64,000 nt of DNA. Origin: an uncultured Prevotella sp. Its GTDB lineage: Bacteria; Bacteroidota; Bacteroidia; Bacteroidales; Bacteroidaceae. The position numbers and the translations under genes were made by a program. Within the stretch, counting starts at the first letter, position 1. The number at the start of each line of letters is the position of its first letter. This document shows, piece after piece, positions 11,237 to 49,042 of the stretch. Location of the stretch: NCBI GenBank assembly GCA_934202525.1, contig CAKPYB010000004.1, positions 1-64,000 on the forward strand, read 5' to 3'. Below the pieces are notes generated by a model that was not told the DNA's origin, did not search any database, and worked only from the letters and a program-made list of their open reading frames with translations.

Positions 11237-11524
11237 CTATTTCCAGCAGTAATCAATGCCTCGTTTCTCACACTCTCCTCGCAGGGCGGCAAGGAAGTAA
11301 CTGCGCTCGCTGCCCCAACCACAAACCTTGCGCTCGTGATCCATGGTCTGCTTCAAACGCTCATCGCTGTAAGCGGCAAAACGGGCAGCATACTCTGAAA
11401 TTCTTGACTCGGCATAACCTGCATCAACAGTTGATGACTTGGCATTAGCCGCCATAATTGTTGAAGACTCGGCATTAGCTGCCATTACATTCTCATTGTT
11501 CTTTAAATCTGAATTTGGATTCAT
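11237..11524 (-). CDS. Small orphan protein with internal repeats
   Basis: A 95-residue protein. The N-terminal third is an imperfect repeat (MAANAESSTI, MAANAKSSTV, DAGYAES). The C-terminal half (residues 48-95) resembles a small Bacteroidota family with the pattern ERK.CGW...R..FL..L..EC..RGID, which I recognise as recurrent but cannot give a function. Reality is supported by a canonical promoter at 11675-11644 and a leader of about 110 nt. No partner gene is adjacent. Confidence 0.6.
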   Translation of the reverse strand: MNPNSDLKNNENVMAANAESSTIMAANAKSSTVDAGYAESRISEYAARFAAYSDERLKQTMDHERKVCGWGSERSYFLAALRGECEKRGIDYCWK

Positions 11525-11640
11525 AAAGATAATTATTTTAAGTTGTTAAACACTTACGCATTCTTTTACCACCGTGGTTATCTCTATGCGAAACTCGGTT
11601 GGTGTGCCACAACTGGGCAACTCTTAATGCTTGATTTCGG
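11525..11640 (-). promoter_or_regulatory. Structured 5' leader of small orphan gene
   Basis: The leader between the predicted start of transcription (about 11637) and the ATG at 11524 contains GTTG...CCAAC pairing around a GGCACACC segment and a short ACCAC-G-GTGGT hairpin. This is more structure than the A-rich leaders of the neighbouring genes. It may be a regulatory leader. Confidence 0.3.
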
Positions 11641-32660: not shown

Positions 32661-33227
32661 TTAAGCTTTTTCCAACCAGTTTCTCACCATCTTCTTGCCG
32701 TCTGGCGTCAGCACGCTTTCCGGATGAAACTGGATACCATGAATATCATAGTTCTTATGCTTCAGACCCATGATGCAACCATCATCGCTCACTGCCGTAA
32801 CGTCCAGGCAGTCGGGGAATCCCGAGCGGTCTACTACCCAAGAGTGGTATCTGCCAATCTCTATGCGCTTGTCCAACCCGTCGAAAATAACATCGTTGCC
32901 AAACTGGGTGCAAGGGGTTGCCACTCCATGATACACCTCAGAAAGATTGGTAAGCTTGGCTCCAAACGCCTCGCCTATAGCCTGATGACCCAGGCATACG
33001 CCCAGCATCGGCTTGCGGCCTGCATACTTGCGGATAACATCCATCAGCAGTCCCGCCTCCGACGGAATGCCCGGACCCGGACTCAGAATGATCTTGTCGA
33101 AGCGTTCCAGCTCCGGCAACTGGAACTGGTCGTTGCGGAACACCGTAACGTCAGCTCCCAACTCCTTTACCAGATGGGCCAGATTATAGGTAAAGGAATC
33201 GTAATTATCTATGATTACTACTTTCAT
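32661..33227 (-). CDS. trpG: Anthranilate synthase glutamine amidotransferase TrpG
   Basis: Class I glutamine amidotransferase subunit that delivers ammonia to TrpE. The 188-residue protein starts MKVVIIDNYDSFTYNLAHLV. It has the oxyanion segment LSPGPGIPSE (48-57), the nucleophile Cys78 in GVCLGHQA, and the His/Glu pair in GIQFHPES near the C-terminus. It is the last gene of the trp operon. The 81-base gap to trpE contains a 15-bp inverted repeat. A PabA role is possible for such proteins, but location makes TrpG clear. Confidence 0.93.
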   Translation of the reverse strand: MKVVIIDNYDSFTYNLAHLVKELGADVTVFRNDQFQLPELERFDKIILSPGPGIPSEAGLLMDVIRKYAGRKPMLGVCLGHQAIGEAFGAKLTNLSEVYHGVATPCTQFGNDVIFDGLDKRIEIGRYHSWVVDRSGFPDCLDVTAVSDDGCIMGLKHKNYDIHGIQFHPESVLTPDGKKMVRNWLEKA

Positions 33228-33308: not shown

Positions 33309-34745
33309 TTACAACTCTTCAGCAATGTGAATCGCCTTGGTCAGCGCACCGAGCTTGTTGTTACACTCTTCTAGCTCATACTCATCATTGCTCTTTGCCA
33401 CTACTCCACTACCCGCCTGGAACCAGAGTTCGCCGTTTCGGCTAATGAAGGTACGTATCACGATGGCCTGATTCAGGTCGCCGTTCAGACCGATGAAGCC
33501 GATACAGCCTCCGTAGGCACCGCGGTTGTGAGGCTCCAGCTCTGAGATAATCTGCATCGCTCTCACCTTAGGCGCACCGCTCAGCGTGCCGGCAGGGAAG
33601 GTATCAATAAACTCCTTGATGTGGTCGGCATGCTCATCCAACTCTCCGCTCACACGGCTCACGAGATGGATAACATGACTGTAGAACTGCATGTCCTTGT
33701 AGAAATCTACTTTCACCCCATGACAGTTGCGGCTCAGATCATTGCGCGCCAGGTCTACTAGCATCACGTGCTCGGCATTCTCCTTCGGGTCGTTGCGCAG
33801 GAATTCGGCAGCCTTGCGGTCCTGCTCCATATCTCCTGTGCGTCGGGTGGTTCCGGCAATCGGGTCAATGAACGCCTTATTGCCAACGATGCGGTTGTGG
33901 GTTTCAGGCGAAGAACCGAAGATGCGGAATCCGCCGAAGTCGAAATAGAAGAGATAAGGCGAAGGGTTGATGCTGCGCAGCGCACGGTAGAGTTTGAAAT
34001 CATCGCCCTCATATTTCTGTACGAAGCGGCGGCTCACCACAATCTGGAATACATCTCCGCGCAGGCAGTGCTGAATGCAGCGGCGTATGTTTGCCTTGTG
34101 CTCCTCATCGGTGAGCGTAGAGATAGTTTCGCCCACCGGGTGGAAATCATAAGGTTTCACATTTGCCTTGTTCACCGCCTTGAGCAGTTCGTCGAGCTCT
34201 GGAAGTGAAGAGTGAGAATCTTCACTTTCCTGGAGCACAATGAGCTCCATGGTGTTGTTGAAATGATCGAAAACGATGATATCCTTATACATAATGTAAT
34301 AGATGTCGGGCGCATCATTCTTCTCCATGGTGGTATCCTTAACCGGGATATTCTCGAAATATCTCACCGCATTGAAGGTGGTGAAACCATAGAGTCCGCA
34401 AAACTCCTTGCTCTCGCCCTCAACATGGAAGGAAGAGATAAAATCGTTGATACTCTTTGAGATGGCGAGCTTGCACTCCTCGCCCTTACCTGCACCGAAG
34501 GCAGGAAGCTGCTCTTTCTCTACACTTCCGTCGGGATAGGTCTTGATAACCTCACCATGACTTACGGCGATGCTTGCCAGCGGATGCACACCGATGAAGG
34601 AGCGCGAATTCTCGGAGCCATGATAGTCGGAACTCTCCATCAGAGCCGACTGCGGATAAATATCTCTCAGTCGCATGTAGACTCCCACCGGCGTATAGAG
34701 GTCAGCGAGAATCTTGCGGGTAACTGTCTTGTAACTAAACTTCAT
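33309..34745 (-). CDS. trpE: Anthranilate synthase component I TrpE
   Basis: Converts chorismate plus ammonia to anthranilate. At 478 residues it is a full-length TrpE, not fused to TrpG. The N-terminal regulatory half carries ALMESSDYHGSENSRSFIG, the equivalent of the LLES tryptophan-feedback element, so allosteric inhibition by Trp is likely. The chorismate-binding half has PIAGTRRTGD, DLARNDLSRN, FPAGTLSGAPKVRAM and the terminal FQAGSGVVAKS region. The order trpB-trpE-trpG in the transcript places it sixth of seven. Confidence 0.95.
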   Translation of the reverse strand: MKFSYKTVTRKILADLYTPVGVYMRLRDIYPQSALMESSDYHGSENSRSFIGVHPLASIAVSHGEVIKTYPDGSVEKEQLPAFGAGKGEECKLAISKSINDFISSFHVEGESKEFCGLYGFTTFNAVRYFENIPVKDTTMEKNDAPDIYYIMYKDIIVFDHFNNTMELIVLQESEDSHSSLPELDELLKAVNKANVKPYDFHPVGETISTLTDEEHKANIRRCIQHCLRGDVFQIVVSRRFVQKYEGDDFKLYRALRSINPSPYLFYFDFGGFRIFGSSPETHNRIVGNKAFIDPIAGTTRRTGDMEQDRKAAEFLRNDPKENAEHVMLVDLARNDLSRNCHGVKVDFYKDMQFYSHVIHLVSRVSGELDEHADHIKEFIDTFPAGTLSGAPKVRAMQIISELEPHNRGAYGGCIGFIGLNGDLNQAIVIRTFISRNGELWFQAGSGVVAKSNDEYELEECNNKLGALTKAIHIAEEL

Positions 34746-34848: not shown

Positions 34849-36048
34849 TTAAAAATTGCCGTATTCTCCTGCCATTTCCTTATGGCTCAAATATGTTTCT
34901 ACATCCTTGTCGCCACGGCCTGATACGGTGAGCACCACCACATCATCCTTCTTGAACTTCATCTTCTTCAGGGCTGCCACGGCGTGCGCACTCTCAATAG
35001 CCGGAATGATGCCTTCCATGCGGGTGAGCTCGTAACCGGCGTAGATGGCCTCATCATCCTTGATGGCGAGCACATGACTTCTGCCAGATGTGGCAAGGTC
35101 GGCGTGCATAGGTCCGATGCCCGGATAGTCGAGACCGGCACTGATGGTGAAGGCTTCCTCTATCTGTCCGTCCTCGGTCTGCATCACGAGAGTGCGGGCT
35201 CCGTGGATAATGCCCTCTGTGCCGCAGTGCATGGTGGCAGCGGTGTAATCGGTATCTATTCCGTGTCCGGCAGCCTCAGCCAGATAAATCTTTACGCGGT
35301 CATCATCAATGTAGTGGTAGATGGTTCCGGCAGCGTTGCTTCCGCCACCCACGCAGGCGATGAGGTAATCAGGATAGTCGCGGCCAATCTTCTCCTCCAA
35401 CTGCCATTTCAGTTCCTCGGAGATGACGCTCTGCATCTTGGCAACAATGTCTGGATAAGGGTGCGGACCCATGGTAGAACCTACAATGTAGAAGGTATCC
35501 TGTGGGTGGCAGCACCAGTCGCGTATGGCCTCAGAGCAGGCATCGCTCAGCGTCATGTTGCCGGTGCGCACAGGGTTCACCTTGGCTCCCAGCATCTTCA
35601 TACGCTCTACGTTGGTATGCTGGCGTTCCACATCGGTGGCACCCATGAAAATCTCACACTTCATGTTCATCAGGGCGCATACCGTAGCGGTAGCCACACC
35701 GTGCTGTCCGGCTCCGGTTTCGGCAATGATGCGGGTCTTGCCCATTTTCTTTGCCATGAGAATCTGACCGATGGTGTTATTGATTTTGTGTGCACCGGTA
35801 TGGTTCAGGTCCTCGCGCTTCAGGTAGAGCTGGCATCCGTACTTCTCGCTCATGCGCTTGGCATAATAAAGAGGTGAAGGACGGCCCACATAATCTTTCA
35901 GCAGCGCGCGGTATTCCTTCTTGAACTCCTCGCTTTCAATGATTGGCTTGTAAGCCTGCTGCAACTCGGTTACACATTTATATAATATCTCAGGAACATA
36001 CGCTCCTCCGAATTTTCCAAAAAATCCTTTTTCGTCAACTTGATACAT
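34849..36048 (-). CDS. trpB: Tryptophan synthase beta chain TrpB
   Basis: PLP enzyme that joins indole and serine. The 399-residue protein is TrpB1-type, with the PLP lysine Lys88 in NHTGAHKINNTIG, the catalytic Glu in AETGAGQHG, and the phosphate-binding loop CVGGGSNAAG. The N-terminal KFGGAYVPE segment that contacts TrpA is intact, and trpA lies immediately upstream in the transcript, so substrate channelling through an alpha2beta2 complex is expected. Confidence 0.96.
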   Translation of the reverse strand: MYQVDEKGFFGKFGGAYVPEILYKCVTELQQAYKPIIESEEFKKEYRALLKDYVGRPSPLYYAKRMSEKYGCQLYLKREDLNHTGAHKINNTIGQILMAKKMGKTRIIAETGAGQHGVATATVCALMNMKCEIFMGATDVERQHTNVERMKMLGAKVNPVRTGNMTLSDACSEAIRDWCCHPQDTFYIVGSTMGPHPYPDIVAKMQSVISEELKWQLEEKIGRDYPDYLIACVGGGSNAAGTIYHYIDDDRVKIYLAEAAGHGIDTDYTAATMHCGTEGIIHGARTLVMQTEDGQIEEAFTISAGLDYPGIGPMHADLATSGRSHVLAIKDDEAIYAGYELTRMEGIIPAIESAHAVAALKKMKFKKDDVVVLTVSGRGDKDVETYLSHKEMAGEYGNF

Positions 36049-36131: not shown

Positions 36132-36908
36132 CTACTTTTTGAGGCACTCAAAAAGCCTATCTAATGCCTGATCCGGATCACCGGTTTCATTGAGCAGGGT
36201 TACAAACTTGCTGCCGATGATGGCTCCCGCCGCATTATCCTGAGCACTGGTAAGGGTCTGCTTGTTGCTGATGCCGAAACCTATCATGCGTGGGTTGCGC
36301 AGATTCATGCCGTTGATGTGGTTGAAATAAGCCAACTTGGCATCACCGAAACTGCTCTGGGCACCCGTGATGCTCGCCGAACTGACCATATAGATGAAAC
36401 CATCGGTATGCTCATCGATGAAACGGATGCGCTCCTCGCTGGTTTCCGGCGTAATCATCATGATGACACGGATGTCATACTTGTCGGCTATGGGTTTTAC
36501 CACCTTCAGATAATCATCAAAGGGAAGGTCTGGGATGATGGAACCGCTCACTCCGCTCTCTACGCAGCTCTTGAAGAAAGCCTCAATGCCGTAGTGCATG
36601 ATAGGGTTCAGATAACCCATCAGCACGAGTGGAAGCTGCACTTCATCCTTGATTTCCTTCAGCTGGGCGAAGAGTTTCTTCACTGTCATTCCGTTCTTCA
36701 AGGCCTTGGTTCCGGCACTCTGGATAACCGGTCCGTCGGCAAGTGGATCGCTGAAAGGGATTCCTACCTCAATCATGTCGATGCCCTTGCGTTCCATCGC
36801 CTTAATTACATCGCCGGTACCTTCCAAAGTTGGGCATCCGGCGCAGAAATACAAGCTCAAAAGCTTGCGGTCTTTATTGTTTGCAAATAATGCATTTATC
36901 TTGTTCAT
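36132..36908 (-). CDS. trpA: Tryptophan synthase alpha chain TrpA
   Basis: Cleaves indole-3-glycerol phosphate to indole and glyceraldehyde 3-phosphate. The 258-residue TIM barrel has the catalytic Glu47 (MIEVGIPFSD) and Asp58 (PLADGPVIQ), matching E. coli Glu49 and Asp60. The VLMGYLNPI strand and the phosphate-binding GFGISNKQ and AIIGSKFV loops are present. It lies between trpF and trpB in the operon. Confidence 0.95.
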   Translation of the reverse strand: MNKINALFANNKDRKLLSLYFCAGCPTLEGTGDVIKAMERKGIDMIEVGIPFSDPLADGPVIQSAGTKALKNGMTVKKLFAQLKEIKDEVQLPLVLMGYLNPIMHYGIEAFFKSCVESGVSGSIIPDLPFDDYLKVVKPIADKYDIRVIMMITPETSEERIRFIDEHTDGFIYMVSSASITGAQSSFGDAKLAYFNHINGMNLRNPRMIGFGISNKQTLTSAQDNAAGAIIGSKFVTLLNETGDPDQALDRLFECLKK

Positions 36909-36934: not shown

Positions 36935-37555
36935 TTACTTTTTTACCTTTAAAAGGAATTCCTTGAGTTTCTCTACATCCTTCAGTCCCGGTTCTGTCTC
37001 AAACCTGGAGTTGAGGTCGATTCCTACACATCGGGGATGATGGAAAGACAGGATGCGGGAAGCATCTTCCGAACCGATGCCGCCACTCAACAAGAATGGA
37101 ACATCGCCATCATATTCATCCAGGACCTGCCAATCAAACTGCTGACCACTTCCGCCCACCGTCTTACATTTGGTGTCGAAAAGAAAGTAGTCAACAGCGC
37201 CTACATACTCCTTATATTTCTGAATATCCCCGGCAGTGGAAACACTGATGGCTTTGATTATCTTCATATTCCCCTTTGCTGCACGCAGCTGCTCACACAG
37301 TTGCCTGCTCTCGTTTCCATGCATCTGTACCGCATTCAGGGAGAAGGAATGAATCTTATCCAACATATTGGGGATGGAATCATTCACGAAGACTCCCACT
37401 CGGCACACGTTGCGGTCAGCATCAGAGCGAGCCACCACATGACTGGCATACCGAGGAGACTTAGGATAGAAGATGAATCCCATCATATCTACGCCGAGTT
37501 GCGCAACCTGCTTTACATTATCAGGTTCACGCATTCCACAAACCTTTACTAACAT
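36935..37555 (-). CDS. trpF: Phosphoribosylanthranilate isomerase TrpF
   Basis: Catalyses the Amadori rearrangement to CdRP. A 206-residue stand-alone TIM barrel with the general-base Cys in KVCGMREPDNV (Cys7), the FIFYPKSPRYAS phosphate region, and LLSGGIGSED near the C-terminal end of the barrel. Separate from TrpC here (not the E. coli TrpCF fusion). Four bases separate it from trpC. The frame ends in a KVKK tail inside a pyrimidine-repeat spacer. Confidence 0.94.
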   Translation of the reverse strand: MLVKVCGMREPDNVKQVAQLGVDMMGFIFYPKSPRYASHVVARSDADRNVCRVGVFVNDSIPNMLDKIHSFSLNAVQMHGNESRQLCEQLRAAKGNMKIIKAISVSTAGDIQKYKEYVGAVDYFLFDTKCKTVGGSGQQFDWQVLDEYDGDVPFLLSGGIGSEDASRILSFHHPRCVGIDLNSRFETEPGLKDVEKLKEFLLKVKK

Positions 37556-37559
37556 ATTC

Positions 37560-38372
37560 TTATTGTTTCAACTGCTTAATAAACTCTTGAAGTGCTACGC
37601 CCGGGTCTGCCTGTTTCATGAACTGTTCGCCCATCAGGAAACCTCTGAAGCTGCCCTCTTCTCTTAACCGGAGCACCATCTGCGGGTTGGAGATGCCACT
37701 CTCGCTCACCCTGCACACATCCTTCGGAAGTTTCTCTGCCAATCTGAAGCTGTTCTCCACATCCGTAAAGAAGGTACCGAGATTGCGGTTGTTGATACCG
37801 TACATATCCGGTTCCAGTTCCGCATACTCGAAGTCGCGCTCATTATGCATCTCGAGCAGCACCTCCATGCCCAACTGATGGGCCATGTTCATGAGCTGCT
37901 TACACTCCTCCTTGGTCAGACATGCCGCAATGAGCAGCACGGCAGAAGCTCCGCAGTATCTCGCCTGCAGCAGCTGGTATTCCTCTACCACGAAGTTCTT
38001 ATATAAGATAGGTAGAGTAACACCCACGTGGCGCGCCTCCTGAATATACTCATCATATCCTCCGAAATAATCAATATCGGTGAGGATGCTGAGCGCCGAG
38101 GCTCCGTTCTGCTGGTAGGCAAGCGGGATAACGCTCGGCTTACCTTCCTGCTTGATCCAGCCCTTGGAAGGCGATTTGCGCTTAAATTCAGCGATGATAC
38201 CCGTCTCTGAGTTCATCAGCGCCTCCTTCATACTTCCGCCCAGCACCTTTCCCCCATCCTCCTGCATCTTCTGCTCGGTGAGGGTTATCATCTGCCGTGG
38301 CTGGATAAAGCGCTTGCGCTGCTCTATCTCTATCTTTTTATGAGCAACAATTTCCTCTAAAATATCAGCCAT
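37560..38372 (-). CDS. trpC: Indole-3-glycerol phosphate synthase TrpC
   Basis: Closes the indole ring from CdRP. The 270-residue TIM barrel has the catalytic lysine motif EFKRKSPSKG near residue 62, VLLIAACLTKEE, the GINNRNLGTF strand and the phosphate loop SESGISNPQ. N-terminal extension of about 45 residues (helix alpha-0) is normal for the family. It follows trpD after 122 bases. Confidence 0.95.
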   Translation of the reverse strand: MADILEEIVAHKKIEIEQRKRFIQPRQMITLTEQKMQEDGGKVLGGSMKEALMNSETGIIAEFKRKSPSKGWIKQEGKPSVIPLAYQQNGASALSILTDIDYFGGYDEYIQEARHVGVTLPILYKNFVVEEYQLLQARYCGASAVLLIAACLTKEECKQLMNMAHQLGMEVLLEMHNERDFEYAELEPDMYGINNRNLGTFFTDVENSFRLAEKLPKDVCRVSESGISNPQMVLRLREEGSFRGFLMGEQFMKQADPGVALQEFIKQLKQ

Positions 38373-38494: not shown

Positions 38495-39502
38495 TTACCT
38501 TTTATTAATCTCTACGAATTTCTTGAAGGTAGCGAGTGCCTTACCCGAGTCGATGCTCTCTCTTGCAATCTCCACACATTCCTCAATGCTCTTCTGACCC
38601 TTCTCCATCACCTGGATACCGAAGGCTGCATTGGCGAGAACGATGTTCTTCTGGGCTGGGAGAGCACGGTTTTCAAGCACCGCATCAAAGATGTCCTTTG
38701 CCTCTTCCTCGGTAGCTCCGCCTCTCACCTCTTCAGGTTTGGCAATCTCGAAACCGAGATCCTGAGGTTTGAAAATCTTCTCATAGTTGTTGGTGGTTAC
38801 CTTGAAGTCGCCGGTGAGTGAAATCTCATCATATCCGTCGATGCTGTTCACTATGCCGAAATCAATGCCCAACTTCTGGTAAACCTGATTGTAGAGGCGC
38901 ATCTGGTCTAGATTGGCTACACCCAGCAACTGACATTTAGGCTGACTAGGATTAACAAGAGGACCTAACAGGTTGAACACGGTAGGGAACTGCAAAGCCT
39001 TGCGGATAGGACCCACAAACTTCATTGCCTTGGCGAAGAGCTGGGCATGAAGATAAACGATGCCTGCCTCGTTGATGCTGCGGTTCAGCTTATCCATATC
39101 ATCGGTAAACTGAACACCATGGTTCTTGATCACGTTGCTGGCACCGCTCACCGAAGTAGCCGCATAGTTGCCGTGCTTTGCCACCTTGTAACCCGCACCC
39201 GCAATAACGAAGCAGGAAGTGGTAGAAATGTTAAAGGTGTTCTTGCGGTCGCCACCGGTTCCCACCACGTCAATATAGCGGTCGCAATCCAGGATGGCTG
39301 GCACGCCTGTTGCAAGAATACCATCACGGAAACCGAGCAGTTCATCTACCGTTACGCCTCTCATCTGCAGTCCGGTGAGCAGGGCTGTAATCTGCTCCTC
39401 TGGAAATTCACTCTTGGTGATTCCTACAATGATGTCTCTGGTTTCCTCACGAGTCAGTTCCTCGTGGTTCAACATTCTGTTCAAAATGTCCTTCATTTCC
39501 AT
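38495..39502 (-). CDS. trpD: Anthranilate phosphoribosyltransferase TrpD
   Basis: Adds phosphoribose to anthranilate. The 335-residue protein has the PRPP-binding VVGTGGDRKNTFNIST segment near residues 79-94, KHGNYAATSVSGASNV after it, and the second metal-binding VNSIDGYDEIS. It is the first structural gene of the operon and begins 39 bases after the attenuator terminator stem, so read-through of that terminator controls all seven genes. Confidence 0.95.
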   Translation of the reverse strand: MEMKDILNRMLNHEELTREETRDIIVGITKSEFPEEQITALLTGLQMRGVTVDELLGFRDGILATGVPAILDCDRYIDVVGTGGDRKNTFNISTTSCFVIAGAGYKVAKHGNYAATSVSGASNVIKNHGVQFTDDMDKLNRSINEAGIVYLHAQLFAKAMKFVGPIRKALQFPTVFNLLGPLVNPSQPKCQLLGVANLDQMRLYNQVYQKLGIDFGIVNSIDGYDEISLTGDFKVTTNNYEKIFKPQDLGFEIAKPEEVRGGATEEEAKDIFDAVLENRALPAQKNIVLANAAFGIQVMEKGQKSIEECVEIARESIDSGKALATFKKFVEINKR

Positions 39503-39540
39503 AGTTAATATCTCCTATATTTTTGTTTTTATTTTGCTGT

Positions 39541-39579
39541 AAAAGAAAAGGGGCCTGTCGTTAGTTACGGCAGGCCCCT
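39541..39579 (-). terminator. trp attenuator terminator
   Basis: On the minus strand AGGGGCCTG (39579-39571) pairs with CAGGCCCCT (39557-39549). A one-base mismatch and an inner CGT/ACG pairing lie around a five-base loop, then TTTCTTTT follows. It sits between the leader peptide and trpD, so it must be read through for operon expression. Confidence 0.9.
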
Positions 39580-39648
39580 AGTATATTATGTTGTTCACAT
39601 CCACATACGGCGTCTCGACTCACGACTTTTGGAATCTTGAGTTACGCC
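39557..39648 (-). promoter_or_regulatory. trp attenuator alternative folds
   Basis: A pause stem is formed by GGCGT (39648-39644) with ACGCC (39613-39609) and ACTCA (39642-39638) with TGAGT (39622-39618). A competing pairing joins GTCGTGAGT (39626-39618) with ACTAACGAC (39565-39557), 8 of 9 positions, and would dismantle the upper and 3' part of the terminator. The two folds exclude each other because both use TGAGT. Confidence 0.6.
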
Positions 39649-39679
39649 ACCACCATGATGTAGATACGAATGTATTCAT
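39620..39679 (-). CDS. trp leader peptide with three consecutive Trp codons
   Basis: A 19-residue open frame, MNTFVSTSWWWRNSRFQKS, with TGG-TGG-TGG at 39655-39647 (minus strand) and stop TGA at 39622-39620. It lies about 84 nt after the predicted transcription start and is followed by the terminator. Ribosome stalling at the Trp codons when tryptophanyl-tRNA is scarce should switch the downstream RNA fold. Three adjacent Trp codons in 19 by chance, exactly upstream of a trp operon, is very unlikely. The 5' context is A-rich (AAAAGAAAAAGCAAT), without a Shine-Dalgarno sequence, as usual here. Confidence 0.88.
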   Translation of the reverse strand: MNTFVSTSWWWRNSRFQKS

Positions 39680-39769
39680 ATTGCTTTTTCTTTTAATTGT
39701 TTGTTACTAAAACGAGGCGTTTCTTTCTTTTTAACGAAAAGATTCTCCTTCGTTCTTCATTTTCTACTG

Positions 39770-39800
39770 CAAAAGTACAGTTTTTCTTTTAAACTACAAA
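39770..39800 (-). promoter_or_regulatory. trp operon promoter
   Basis: Minus-strand TTTG (39800-39797), 19-nt spacer, TACTTTTG (39777-39770). Predicted start near 39763, giving a leader of about 260 nt before trpD. The rest of 39801-40073 is AT-rich and gene-free. Confidence 0.82.
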
Positions 39801-40202: not shown

Positions 40203-40215
40203 CAGAAGAAGAAAG

Positions 40216-40869
40216 ATGAAAACAATGATATCCCCTTCATTGCTCTCAGCCAACTTTATTGACCTGAAGAGTGATATAGAGATGATAAACAAGAGTGAAG
40301 CCGACTGGCTCCACCTCGACGTGATGGATGGCGTCTTTGTGCCCAACATCTCGTTCGGATTCCCTGTGATTGAAGCCGTGAGCAAGGTATGCACCAAGCC
40401 CCTCGACGTCCACTTCATGATTCAGCATCCGGAAAACTACATAGAACAGACTGCCAAGCTCGGTGCCATGATGATGAACGTGCACTACGAGGCCTGCACC
40501 CATCTGCACCGCACCATCCAGCAGATTCACGCAGCAGGCATGAAGGCAGGAGTTACCCTCAACCCTTCTACCCCGGTATGTGTGCTCGAAGACATCATCT
40601 GCGATGTAGACATGGTACTGCTGATGAGCGTAAACCCAGGGTTCGGAGGACAGAAGTTCATCGAGAACACCATCAAGAAAGTAGGCCGTCTGCGCCAGCT
40701 CATCAAGGAGAGCGGCAGCCAGGCACTCATCGAGGTAGATGGTGGCGTGCAGGCAGAAACCGCCCCAAGACTGGTGAAAGCCGGAGTAAACGTGCTGGTA
40801 AGCGGAAGTTATGTATTCAAGAGCACAGATCCTTATGCTACCATCCATGCTCTGAAAGAACTCCACTAA
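40216..40869 (+). CDS. rpe: Ribulose-phosphate 3-epimerase
   Basis: Interconverts ribulose 5-phosphate and xylulose 5-phosphate in the pentose phosphate pathway. I start at ATG 40216 (MKTMISPSLLSANF), the canonical family start; an in-frame ATG 15 codons earlier lies inside the upstream small ORF and would add a non-homologous tail. The TIM barrel has WLHLDVMDGVFVPN with catalytic Asp and His, MSVNPGFGGQKF, and the second Asp in IEVDGGV. 217 residues, complete. Its stop overlaps the stop of the convergent sigma factor gene by four bases. Confidence 0.95.
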   Translation: MKTMISPSLLSANFIDLKSDIEMINKSEADWLHLDVMDGVFVPNISFGFPVIEAVSKVCTKPLDVHFMIQHPENYIEQTAKLGAMMMNVHYEACTHLHRTIQQIHAAGMKAGVTLNPSTPVCVLEDIICDVDMVLLMSVNPGFGGQKFIENTIKKVGRLRQLIKESGSQALIEVDGGVQAETAPRLVKAGVNVLVSGSYVFKSTDPYATIHALKELH

Positions 40870-41462
40870 TCAAGATTCAGATAGATATTGTGCTCCTTAG
40901 CCATCTTGCGGAGGTTAAGGAGCGCATAACGCATTCTTCCCAGACTCGTATTGATGCTCACATTGGTACACTCAGCAATTTCCTTGAAAGACATTTCCTG
41001 ATAATAACGCATATAAACCACCTCGCGTTGTGGAGCCGGCAGAAAGTCTACCAGTTTCTTCACATCACGGAGCACCTGTTTGCGCACAATCTCCTGCTCA
41101 GCACAGTCTGCCTGGAATTCCTCACCGCGCAGACGGGAAAGATCATTATCGTTCCCCTGTTCTACCATGCGGAATACACACTGACTGCGATAACCATCTA
41201 TGATGACATTATGCGCTATACGCATTAACCACGAAATAAATTTGCCCGAACTGGAATACTGGCCAGCATGCAAACGACTGATTGCTTTTACGAATGTCTC
41301 CTGGAAGATATCATTCGCCAAATCCTCATCGTGAACCACGAAAAGGATATAAGAGAACAGTTTCACCTCGTTGCGTGAAAGCAAGAGGTCAAAGGCTCTG
41401 TTGTCGCCCCCGACATAAGCCAAGGCCAACTCTTCGTCTGTCATTTCATTGAGTTTACTCAT
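40866..41462 (-). CDS. ECF-type RNA polymerase sigma factor
   Basis: A 198-residue sigma-70 family member with region 2 (NDIFQETFVKAISRL, near 70-84, and WLMRIAHNVIIDGYR for -10 recognition) and region 4 helix-turn-helix (YYQEMSFKEIAECTNVSINT). No anti-sigma factor lies next to it. It is divergent from the GH28-GH105 gene that opens the pectin locus, but nothing in the sequence proves control of that locus. The stop overlaps rpe in convergent orientation. Confidence 0.88.
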   Translation of the reverse strand: MSKLNEMTDEELALAYVGGDNRAFDLLLSRNEVKLFSYILFVVHDEDLANDIFQETFVKAISRLHAGQYSSSGKFISWLMRIAHNVIIDGYRSQCVFRMVEQGNDNDLSRLRGEEFQADCAEQEIVRKQVLRDVKKLVDFLPAPQREVVYMRYYQEMSFKEIAECTNVSINTSLGRMRYALLNLRKMAKEHNIYLNLD

Positions 41463-48848: not shown

Positions 48849-48980
48849 ATTCCTTCATGCTTTACGTTTTGCGCGGCTAAGATACAAAGAAAATCTGAAT
48901 TAGCCAAAGAAAAAATCAAATAACTGAACTTTCGCTTATCAAAAAAAGAAAGGAGATAAGGAAGTACCGTAAAGATAGCA

Positions 48981-49013
48981 AGAGGGTGCGCCATAACTTA
49001 TGACGCACCCTCT
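48981..49013 (-). terminator. Hairpin after 53-residue peptide gene
   Basis: AGAGGGTGCG / CGCACCCTCT plus an inner CATAA/TTATG, 15 paired positions. A sister hairpin at 63079-63119 has the same AGAGGGTG...GTCATAAGT sequence. The T-run here is poor. Confidence 0.6.
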
Positions 49014-49042
49014 ATATACCTTATAATGAAAAATGAGGAGAA

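Follow-up and report, generated by a model that had tools for sequence, protein, structure and literature searches.

The window, a stretch of 64,000 nucleotides from an uncultured Prevotella sp., carries a trp operon on its minus strand with the gene order trpD-C-F-A-B-E-G (trpDCFABEG), starting from the trpD start at 39502. In the direction of transcription, a Bacteroidota-type promoter is followed by a leader ORF of 19 codons, an intrinsic terminator, and trpD. The first-pass annotation had claimed a promoter, a leader with TGG-TGG-TGG, a terminator, and trpD in that order, and we find each part where it had been placed. The features are listed here with the basis for each in parentheses.

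39797..39800, minus strand: promoter -33 element, TTTG (two-box pattern shared with related leaders)
39770..39777, minus strand: promoter -7 element, TACTTTTG, of the form TAnnTTTG (sequence pattern)
39620..39679, minus strand: leader peptide ORF, MNTFVSTSWWWRNSRFQKS and stop, 19 codons (like leaders in relatives)
39647..39655, minus strand: three consecutive Trp codons (TGG-TGG-TGG), the regulatory codons (sequence)
39594..39670, minus strand: long leader hairpin of the ribosome-free RNA (single-sequence prediction; resembles the hairpin drawn in RF01692)
39634..39641, minus strand: segment 1, CUCAAGAU, directly 3' of the Trp codons, partner of segment 2 (covariation)
39619..39626, minus strand: segment 2, GUCGUGAG, overlapping the leader stop codon, partner of segment 1 or 3
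39557..39564, minus strand: segment 3, CUAACGAC, spanning the apical loop of the terminator and the uppermost bases of its 3' arm, the antiterminator target
39550..39578, minus strand: intrinsic terminator hairpin, GGGGCCUGCCGU-AACUA-ACGACAGGCCCC (fold and covariation)
39541..39549, minus strand: T-rich run of the terminator, TTTTCTTTT (sequence)
38495..39502, minus strand: trpD, first structural gene (TIGR01245, 299.1 bits, cut-off 199)
37560..38372, minus strand: trpC (NF001377, 276.7 bits, cut-off 260)
36935..37555, minus strand: trpF (best family NF002298, phosphoribosylanthranilate isomerase, E 4.1e-49, under the family cut-off)
36132..36908, minus strand: trpA (TIGR00262, 218.4 bits, cut-off 102)
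34849..36048, minus strand: trpB (TIGR00263, 573.1 bits, cut-off 392)
33309..34745, minus strand: trpE (best family TIGR00564, anthranilate synthase component I, E 4.7e-123, under the family cut-off)
32661..33227, minus strand: trpG (TIGR00566, 194 bits, cut-off 121)

Next to the operon, rpe (40207-40869, plus strand) is divergent from the trp leader and convergent with a gene for an ECF-type sigma factor (40866-41462, minus strand); the 3' ends of these two genes share 4 bases. The window also holds a SAM-I/IV riboswitch aptamer at 11524-11635 on the minus strand (51.3 bits).

The two promoter boxes, TTTG and TACTTTTG, are spaced by 19 nt. The pattern TTG-N17-23-TAnnTTTG lies 5' of 135 of 159 leaders of this type, whereas simply shuffled versions of these stretches contain it in 12 of 795 cases, and the boxes in the window are probably used as a promoter. 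No Shine-Dalgarno sequence adjoins the leader ATG, just as had been claimed; Shine-Dalgarno initiation is rarely used in Bacteroidota. The 260-nt stretch that contains these elements folds at -72.1 kcal/mol, compared to a mean of -48.9 kcal/mol for dinucleotide shuffles (z -5.7), and none of 200 shuffles folds as well. In the predicted long leader hairpin, 39670-39658 pairs with 39606-39594 and 39650-39644 with 39613-39607.

A first DNA search with window positions 39300-39720 gave a match in 28 of 60 relatives, and the nearest of the genomes searched (G001) is 95% identical over 417 query bases. Among the matches listed, the best to the trp region of the window is in Segatella paludivivens (L132), followed by L207, with three Prevotella records (L150, L128, and L162) also near the top. 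A pattern scan of named genomes gave at least 118 loci; several of the 80 that were listed are chance matches in other phyla, and the leader scan kept 84 of the 118, with exact duplicates of earlier loci dropped. Scanning yielded 205 raw leaders, reduced to 181 by a filter on energy and distance and to 160 by de-duplication.

The first-pass annotation had proposed a covariance model of orthologous leaders as a check. We built two, R1 from 26 leaders (alignment A1) and R2 from 94 leaders (alignment A3), and with them like leaders are recovered across the genus, family, order, and phylum. In the family, R1 has matches in 200 of 301 genomes, which represent 28 of 30 genera. The raw tallies of 115 of 247 genomes of the order (R1) and 138 of 296 genomes of the phylum (R2) overstate the number of true leaders, because many of the weak matches are partial, cover only the terminator, or lie opposite a true leader on the other strand. 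Some of the searched genomes supplied sequences to the models, and both models include the window, so that their own match to it proves nothing. A further hit at window positions 48905-49016 (plus strand) was rejected; it is a hairpin resembling a terminator, and the 200 bases examined contain no TGG-TGG.

The leader travels with the trp genes. In the genus of the window, a full-length match at E of 4e-14 or below is found in 45 of 60 genomes; of the 15 genomes with no strong full-length match, 14 also lack a TrpD match, and the other one, G068, carries a diverged TrpD and no leader match. When 15 of the 45 leader-bearing genomes were sampled, TrpD was present in 14; in the exception (G013, no TrpD match) the leader precedes trpF and trpB. 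A trp gene comes next in all 30 loci of the best phylum-wide matches, 28 of which lie outside the family of the window. Across the 160 non-redundant leaders, the next gene is trpB in 82, trpD in 37, a TrpB2-like gene in 21, trpE in 12, and trpF in one, so that 153 are followed by a trp or TrpB2-like gene. Four of the remaining seven loci are too short, and three (L113, L196, and L104) have no trp gene within 600 nt, with L196 followed by a TrpB2-like gene on a separate look at its gene context. The operon appears to have been rearranged behind a constant leader that precedes whichever trp gene is first.

We regard the leader at L113 as a chance hit. It is counted among the 160, including in the gene-context counts and in the arm test and all-pairs scan below, and the folding sets were not screened for it; it was left out of alignment A3, for which 95 of the 160 leaders had been chosen and 94 remained, and out of the tree-based test on 183 sequences.

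Several arrangements of such leaders stand out. The TrpB2-like gene behind a Trp leader in 21 of 160 loci (e.g., L063, L067, L073, L077, L227-L229, L233, L234, and L236) belongs to TIGR01415/NF009057 in L063, the one locus tested. Tandem Trp leaders, each with its own terminator, occur in L098, L239, and L240, with trpE following in L098 and L239. In L241, L242, and L243 there are two Trp leaders per trp cluster, one before trpB-E-G and one about 4.9-6.6 kb further on before trpD. Leaders with runs of His codons and terminators precede hisG in 9 of 25 hisG loci (L286, L288, L289, L291, L292, L300, L301, L302, and L309), all in other families of the order; the scan found no His-run leader in the 15 hisG loci of the window's genus.

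Within the leaders, the Trp codons and the RNA segments downstream of them keep a fixed arrangement. The longest Trp run is three codons in 136 of the 160 leaders, two in 23, and four in one. Segment 2 could be located by its motif in 152 of the 160; in every one of these it sits 16-21 nt past the Trp run, and in 117 it contains the stop codon.

To follow the pairings, we aligned 94 leaders (A3) and compared each helix with slid controls, with 500 shuffles, and with 100 null alignments, simulated along a tree whose 183 sequences include 24 from distant loci (L246-L273). The terminator stem is paired in 94.8% of cells, compared to at most 52.8% for the slid controls, and 11 of its 12 pairs show double changes. 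On the tree, its paired fraction is 0.963 compared to a null maximum of 0.799, and compensatory events on the same branch number 68 compared to a null maximum of 9.

The first-pass annotation had also proposed an antiterminator between 39626-39618 and 39565-39557. These arms, GUCGUGAGU and ACUAACGAC, form five pairs, one G-A mismatch, and three further pairs, at -7.0 kcal/mol. In the window alone this duplex is no better than chance, since 20 of 60 shuffles equal it; the support that it has is comparative. The 2:3 pairing is formed in 94.3% of cells in the 94 leaders, compared to at most 39.5% for slid controls; five of eight pairs show double changes, with 32 double-change cells compared to a shuffled mean of 2.6. 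Its paired fraction on the tree, 0.940, lies above all 100 nulls (maximum 0.880), and there are eight double changes on the same branch compared to a null maximum of three. The pair 39621:39562, whose loop position is outside the 5' arm of the terminator, is GC in 35, GU in 35, and AU in 23 of the 94 leaders. On the other side, the pair 39626:39557 is unpaired in 29 of 93 sequences, and the number of further pair types in 2:3 is not beyond shuffles (107 of 500 are as high). The G-A at 39621:39562 is unique to the window among 183 aligned leaders; it is made by a substitution at 39562, where the close relative L001 has T.

The claimed pause stem corresponds to the 1:2 hairpin, which is paired in 82.2% of cells (slid controls at most 43.9%) with double changes in four of eight pairs; on the tree its paired fraction is 0.835 compared to a null maximum of 0.729. 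This bears out the hairpin, with same-branch double changes (four, equal to the null maximum of four) not beyond the tree-based null. Nor does 1:2 exceed shuffles in the number of pairs with double changes (90 of 500) or in further pair types (268 of 500), and of its pairs, 39637:39623 fails to form in 56 of the 94 leaders and 39636:39624 in 37. For all three helices, the paired percentage and the number of double-change cells were reached in none of the 500 shuffles, a test that ignores the relatedness of the leaders. An all-pairs covariation scan against a tree-based null placed no 2:3 pair among the top 40; E was below 1 for two terminator pairs only, and the best 1:2 pair had an E of about 4. 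In these alignments the terminator stem and 2:3 covary, and 1:2 does so more weakly. The leader has mutually exclusive 1:2, 2:3, and terminator pairings, of which 1:2 is the weakest.

These features indicate that the leader is very probably a ribosome-mediated transcription attenuator of the trp operon, turning it off when tryptophan is plentiful. We infer ribosome stalling, termination, the response to tryptophan, and the kinetic nature of the switch as follows. A ribosome would begin the 19-codon leader while RNA polymerase transcribes on. If charged tRNA-Trp is scarce, it would stall on the three Trp codons and cover segment 1, leaving segment 2 (GUCGUGAG, at the stop codon) free to capture segment 3 as it emerges; this 2:3 capture would block nucleation of the terminator hairpin within the short window for termination, giving read-through into trpDCFABEG. 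If tryptophan is plentiful, the ribosome would reach the stop codon and cover segment 2, and the terminator would form. With no ribosome on the RNA, segment 2 would be locked in the leader hairpin, and the terminator would form as well.

We modeled these states by folding the growing RNA at equilibrium with assumed edges for the ribosome footprint, which is not a kinetic simulation, and took as P(2:3) the highest pair probability that joins segment 2 to the loop and 3' arm. When 5 nt of the 3' arm have emerged, P(2:3) is predicted to exceed 0.5 in 99% of 152 leaders with a stalled ribosome, in 1% with the ribosome at the stop codon, and in 12% of ribosome-free leaders. Scrambling segment 2 lowers the stalled figure to 33% of 760. 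From 11 nt of emerged 3' arm onward, the terminator is favored in at least 87% of leaders, even with the ribosome stalled. Given that the terminator wins at full-length equilibrium despite a stalled ribosome, antitermination would have to act by timing, that is, kinetically.

The first-pass annotation had described the locus as having the architecture of E. coli trpL. The order of parts and the logic do agree: trpL (RF00513) likewise has Trp codons, a stop codon over or near segment 2, competing hairpins, and a terminator ahead of the first gene. Unlike trpL, the window has a Bacteroidota promoter and no Shine-Dalgarno sequence adjoining the start. The larger difference lies in which arm of the terminator is sequestered. 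The E. coli trpL antiterminator pairs with the 5' arm; in the lineage of the window, segment 2 appears to take the apical loop and the uppermost part of the 3' arm as its partner.

This difference emerges from an arm test, in which we asked how well the RNA lying between the Trp codons and the terminator can form a duplex with either the 5' arm or the loop plus 3' arm. The mean energy for the 5' arm is -8.03 kcal/mol (null -8.21), and for the loop and 3' arm -12.82 kcal/mol (null -10.16). Leaders that beat 95% of their own 60 shuffles number 4 of 160 for the 5' arm and 52 of 160 for the loop and 3' arm, the leaders being related and not independent trials. More distant leaders of the phylum, for which 28 loci out of L244-L273 (30 loci) were tested, give 1 of 28 and 21 of 28, respectively. 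The sole control, the single sequence of E. coli trpL, gives the reverse: p is 0.026 for the 5' arm (0.06 if four bases are added upstream) and 0.998 for the loop plus 3' arm.

Could the leaders nevertheless be of the E. coli type proper, with segment 2 sequestering the 5' arm and its fit to the loop and 3' arm no more than a by-product of its resemblance to that 5' arm? The arm test can detect a 5'-arm duplex, as trpL shows, and the nine hisG leaders of the order show no uniform side, four favoring the 5' arm and three the loop and 3' arm. The trp leaders, near and distant, point the other way in the counts above, and the covariation of segment 2 extends to loop positions that the 5' arm does not include, as in 39621:39562. 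We consider this reading unlikely; sequestration of the 5' arm is not what we find in these leaders. We lean slightly towards the view that the trp attenuators of Bacteroidota form a distinct topological class, in which the antiterminator copies the top of the terminator's 5' arm at the leader stop codon and captures the loop and 3' arm, with regulation that would be purely kinetic and block hairpin nucleation. Regulation would be purely kinetic, and not the textbook balanced choice between 2:3 and 3:4, because the complete terminator is nearly always more stable.

A constitutive or protein-regulated leader, in which the terminator acts alone or with another factor and the ORF is incidental or encodes a working peptide, is very unlikely. 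There is precedent for the last of these in Sinorhizobium, where the trp leader peptide is described as having a role in trans (PMC7298713). In our leaders, the N-terminal half of the peptide varies, and what is conserved is the Trp run, the downstream RNA segments, and the choice of codons. The segment-2 motif is retained even in the 21 of 152 leaders whose ORF stops upstream of it and in the 14 whose ORF ends elsewhere. The peptide motif WWxxS[RG] occurs in 94 of the 160 leaders, and 89 of these encode its Ser by TCA, a preference that matches the requirement of segment 1. This pattern of conservation favors a function of the RNA over one of the peptide. Translation-level or tRNA-sensing control of trpD, by a T-box or riboswitch, is extremely improbable: normal and permissive Rfam searches of the leader gave no match to a T-box, a riboswitch, or the RF00513 Trp_leader model, identities that we rejected on this basis, and the terminator ends 38 nt 5' of the trpD ATG, which stays uncovered.

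An attenuator that captures the loop and 3' arm of its terminator is our preferred reading, and the lineage of the element is already catalogued. Rfam lists RF01692 as 'Bacteroidete tryptophan peptide leader RNA', and it has a row in Table 1 of a survey from 2010 (PMC2864571), under RNA and cis-regulatory with taxon Bacteroidetes. The normal Rfam search did not report it for the window. In a permissive search, the whole RF01692 model (Bacteroid-trp, 1-131) aligned to 39702-39569 at 35.8 bits; this is below the gathering cut-off of 49, which is why annotation misses the window leader. Two relatives pass the cut-off, L002 at 59.1 bits and L007 at 56.4 bits, and both match nearly the whole query in the DNA search with window positions 39300-39720 (L002 76%, E 4.9e-74; L007 70%, E 1.2e-37), which ties the window by common descent to accepted members. 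The trait that presumably gave the family its name, a run of Trp codons in a leader ORF ahead of trp genes, is present in the window, and the phylum is the same. At the cut-off, RF01692 recognizes 2 of 20 leader loci from the genus of the window, 8 of 20 in a mixed set picked for having a leader or the search pattern, and all 20 of the phylum-wide loci L246-L265. Judged by these sequence matches, the window leader is a sub-threshold homologue of RF01692. The attenuator is not new in kind; the Rfam model stops inside the 5' arm of the terminator and has neither the full terminator nor the 2:3 antiterminator, and the antiterminator on the loop and 3' arm is the main point beyond it.

The first-pass annotation knew of no well-characterized trp attenuator in the phylum. 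That stands in so far as we found no experimental study of one in the open-access literature, but not as regards computation, where RF01692 had been catalogued. A comparative study of attenuators from 2004 is also said to mention Bacteroidetes. For Flavobacterium psychrophilum, of the same phylum, leader-peptide attenuation upstream of amino-acid operons has been called likely, suspected from transcript maps, in a paper whose main text contains neither 'trp' nor 'tryptophan' (PMC9723704).

Our analysis proposes a concrete, testable mechanism for a leader already on record in a dominant gut phylum, and it adds to the family many genomes of the Prevotella type that escape the Rfam model. Trp leaders ahead of TrpB2-like genes tie this paralogue to the supply of tryptophan. 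The leaders suggest that ribosome-mediated attenuation operates in a phylum that rarely uses Shine-Dalgarno initiation, and, if confirmed, an antiterminator that captures the 3' arm would add a second topology to textbook attenuation.
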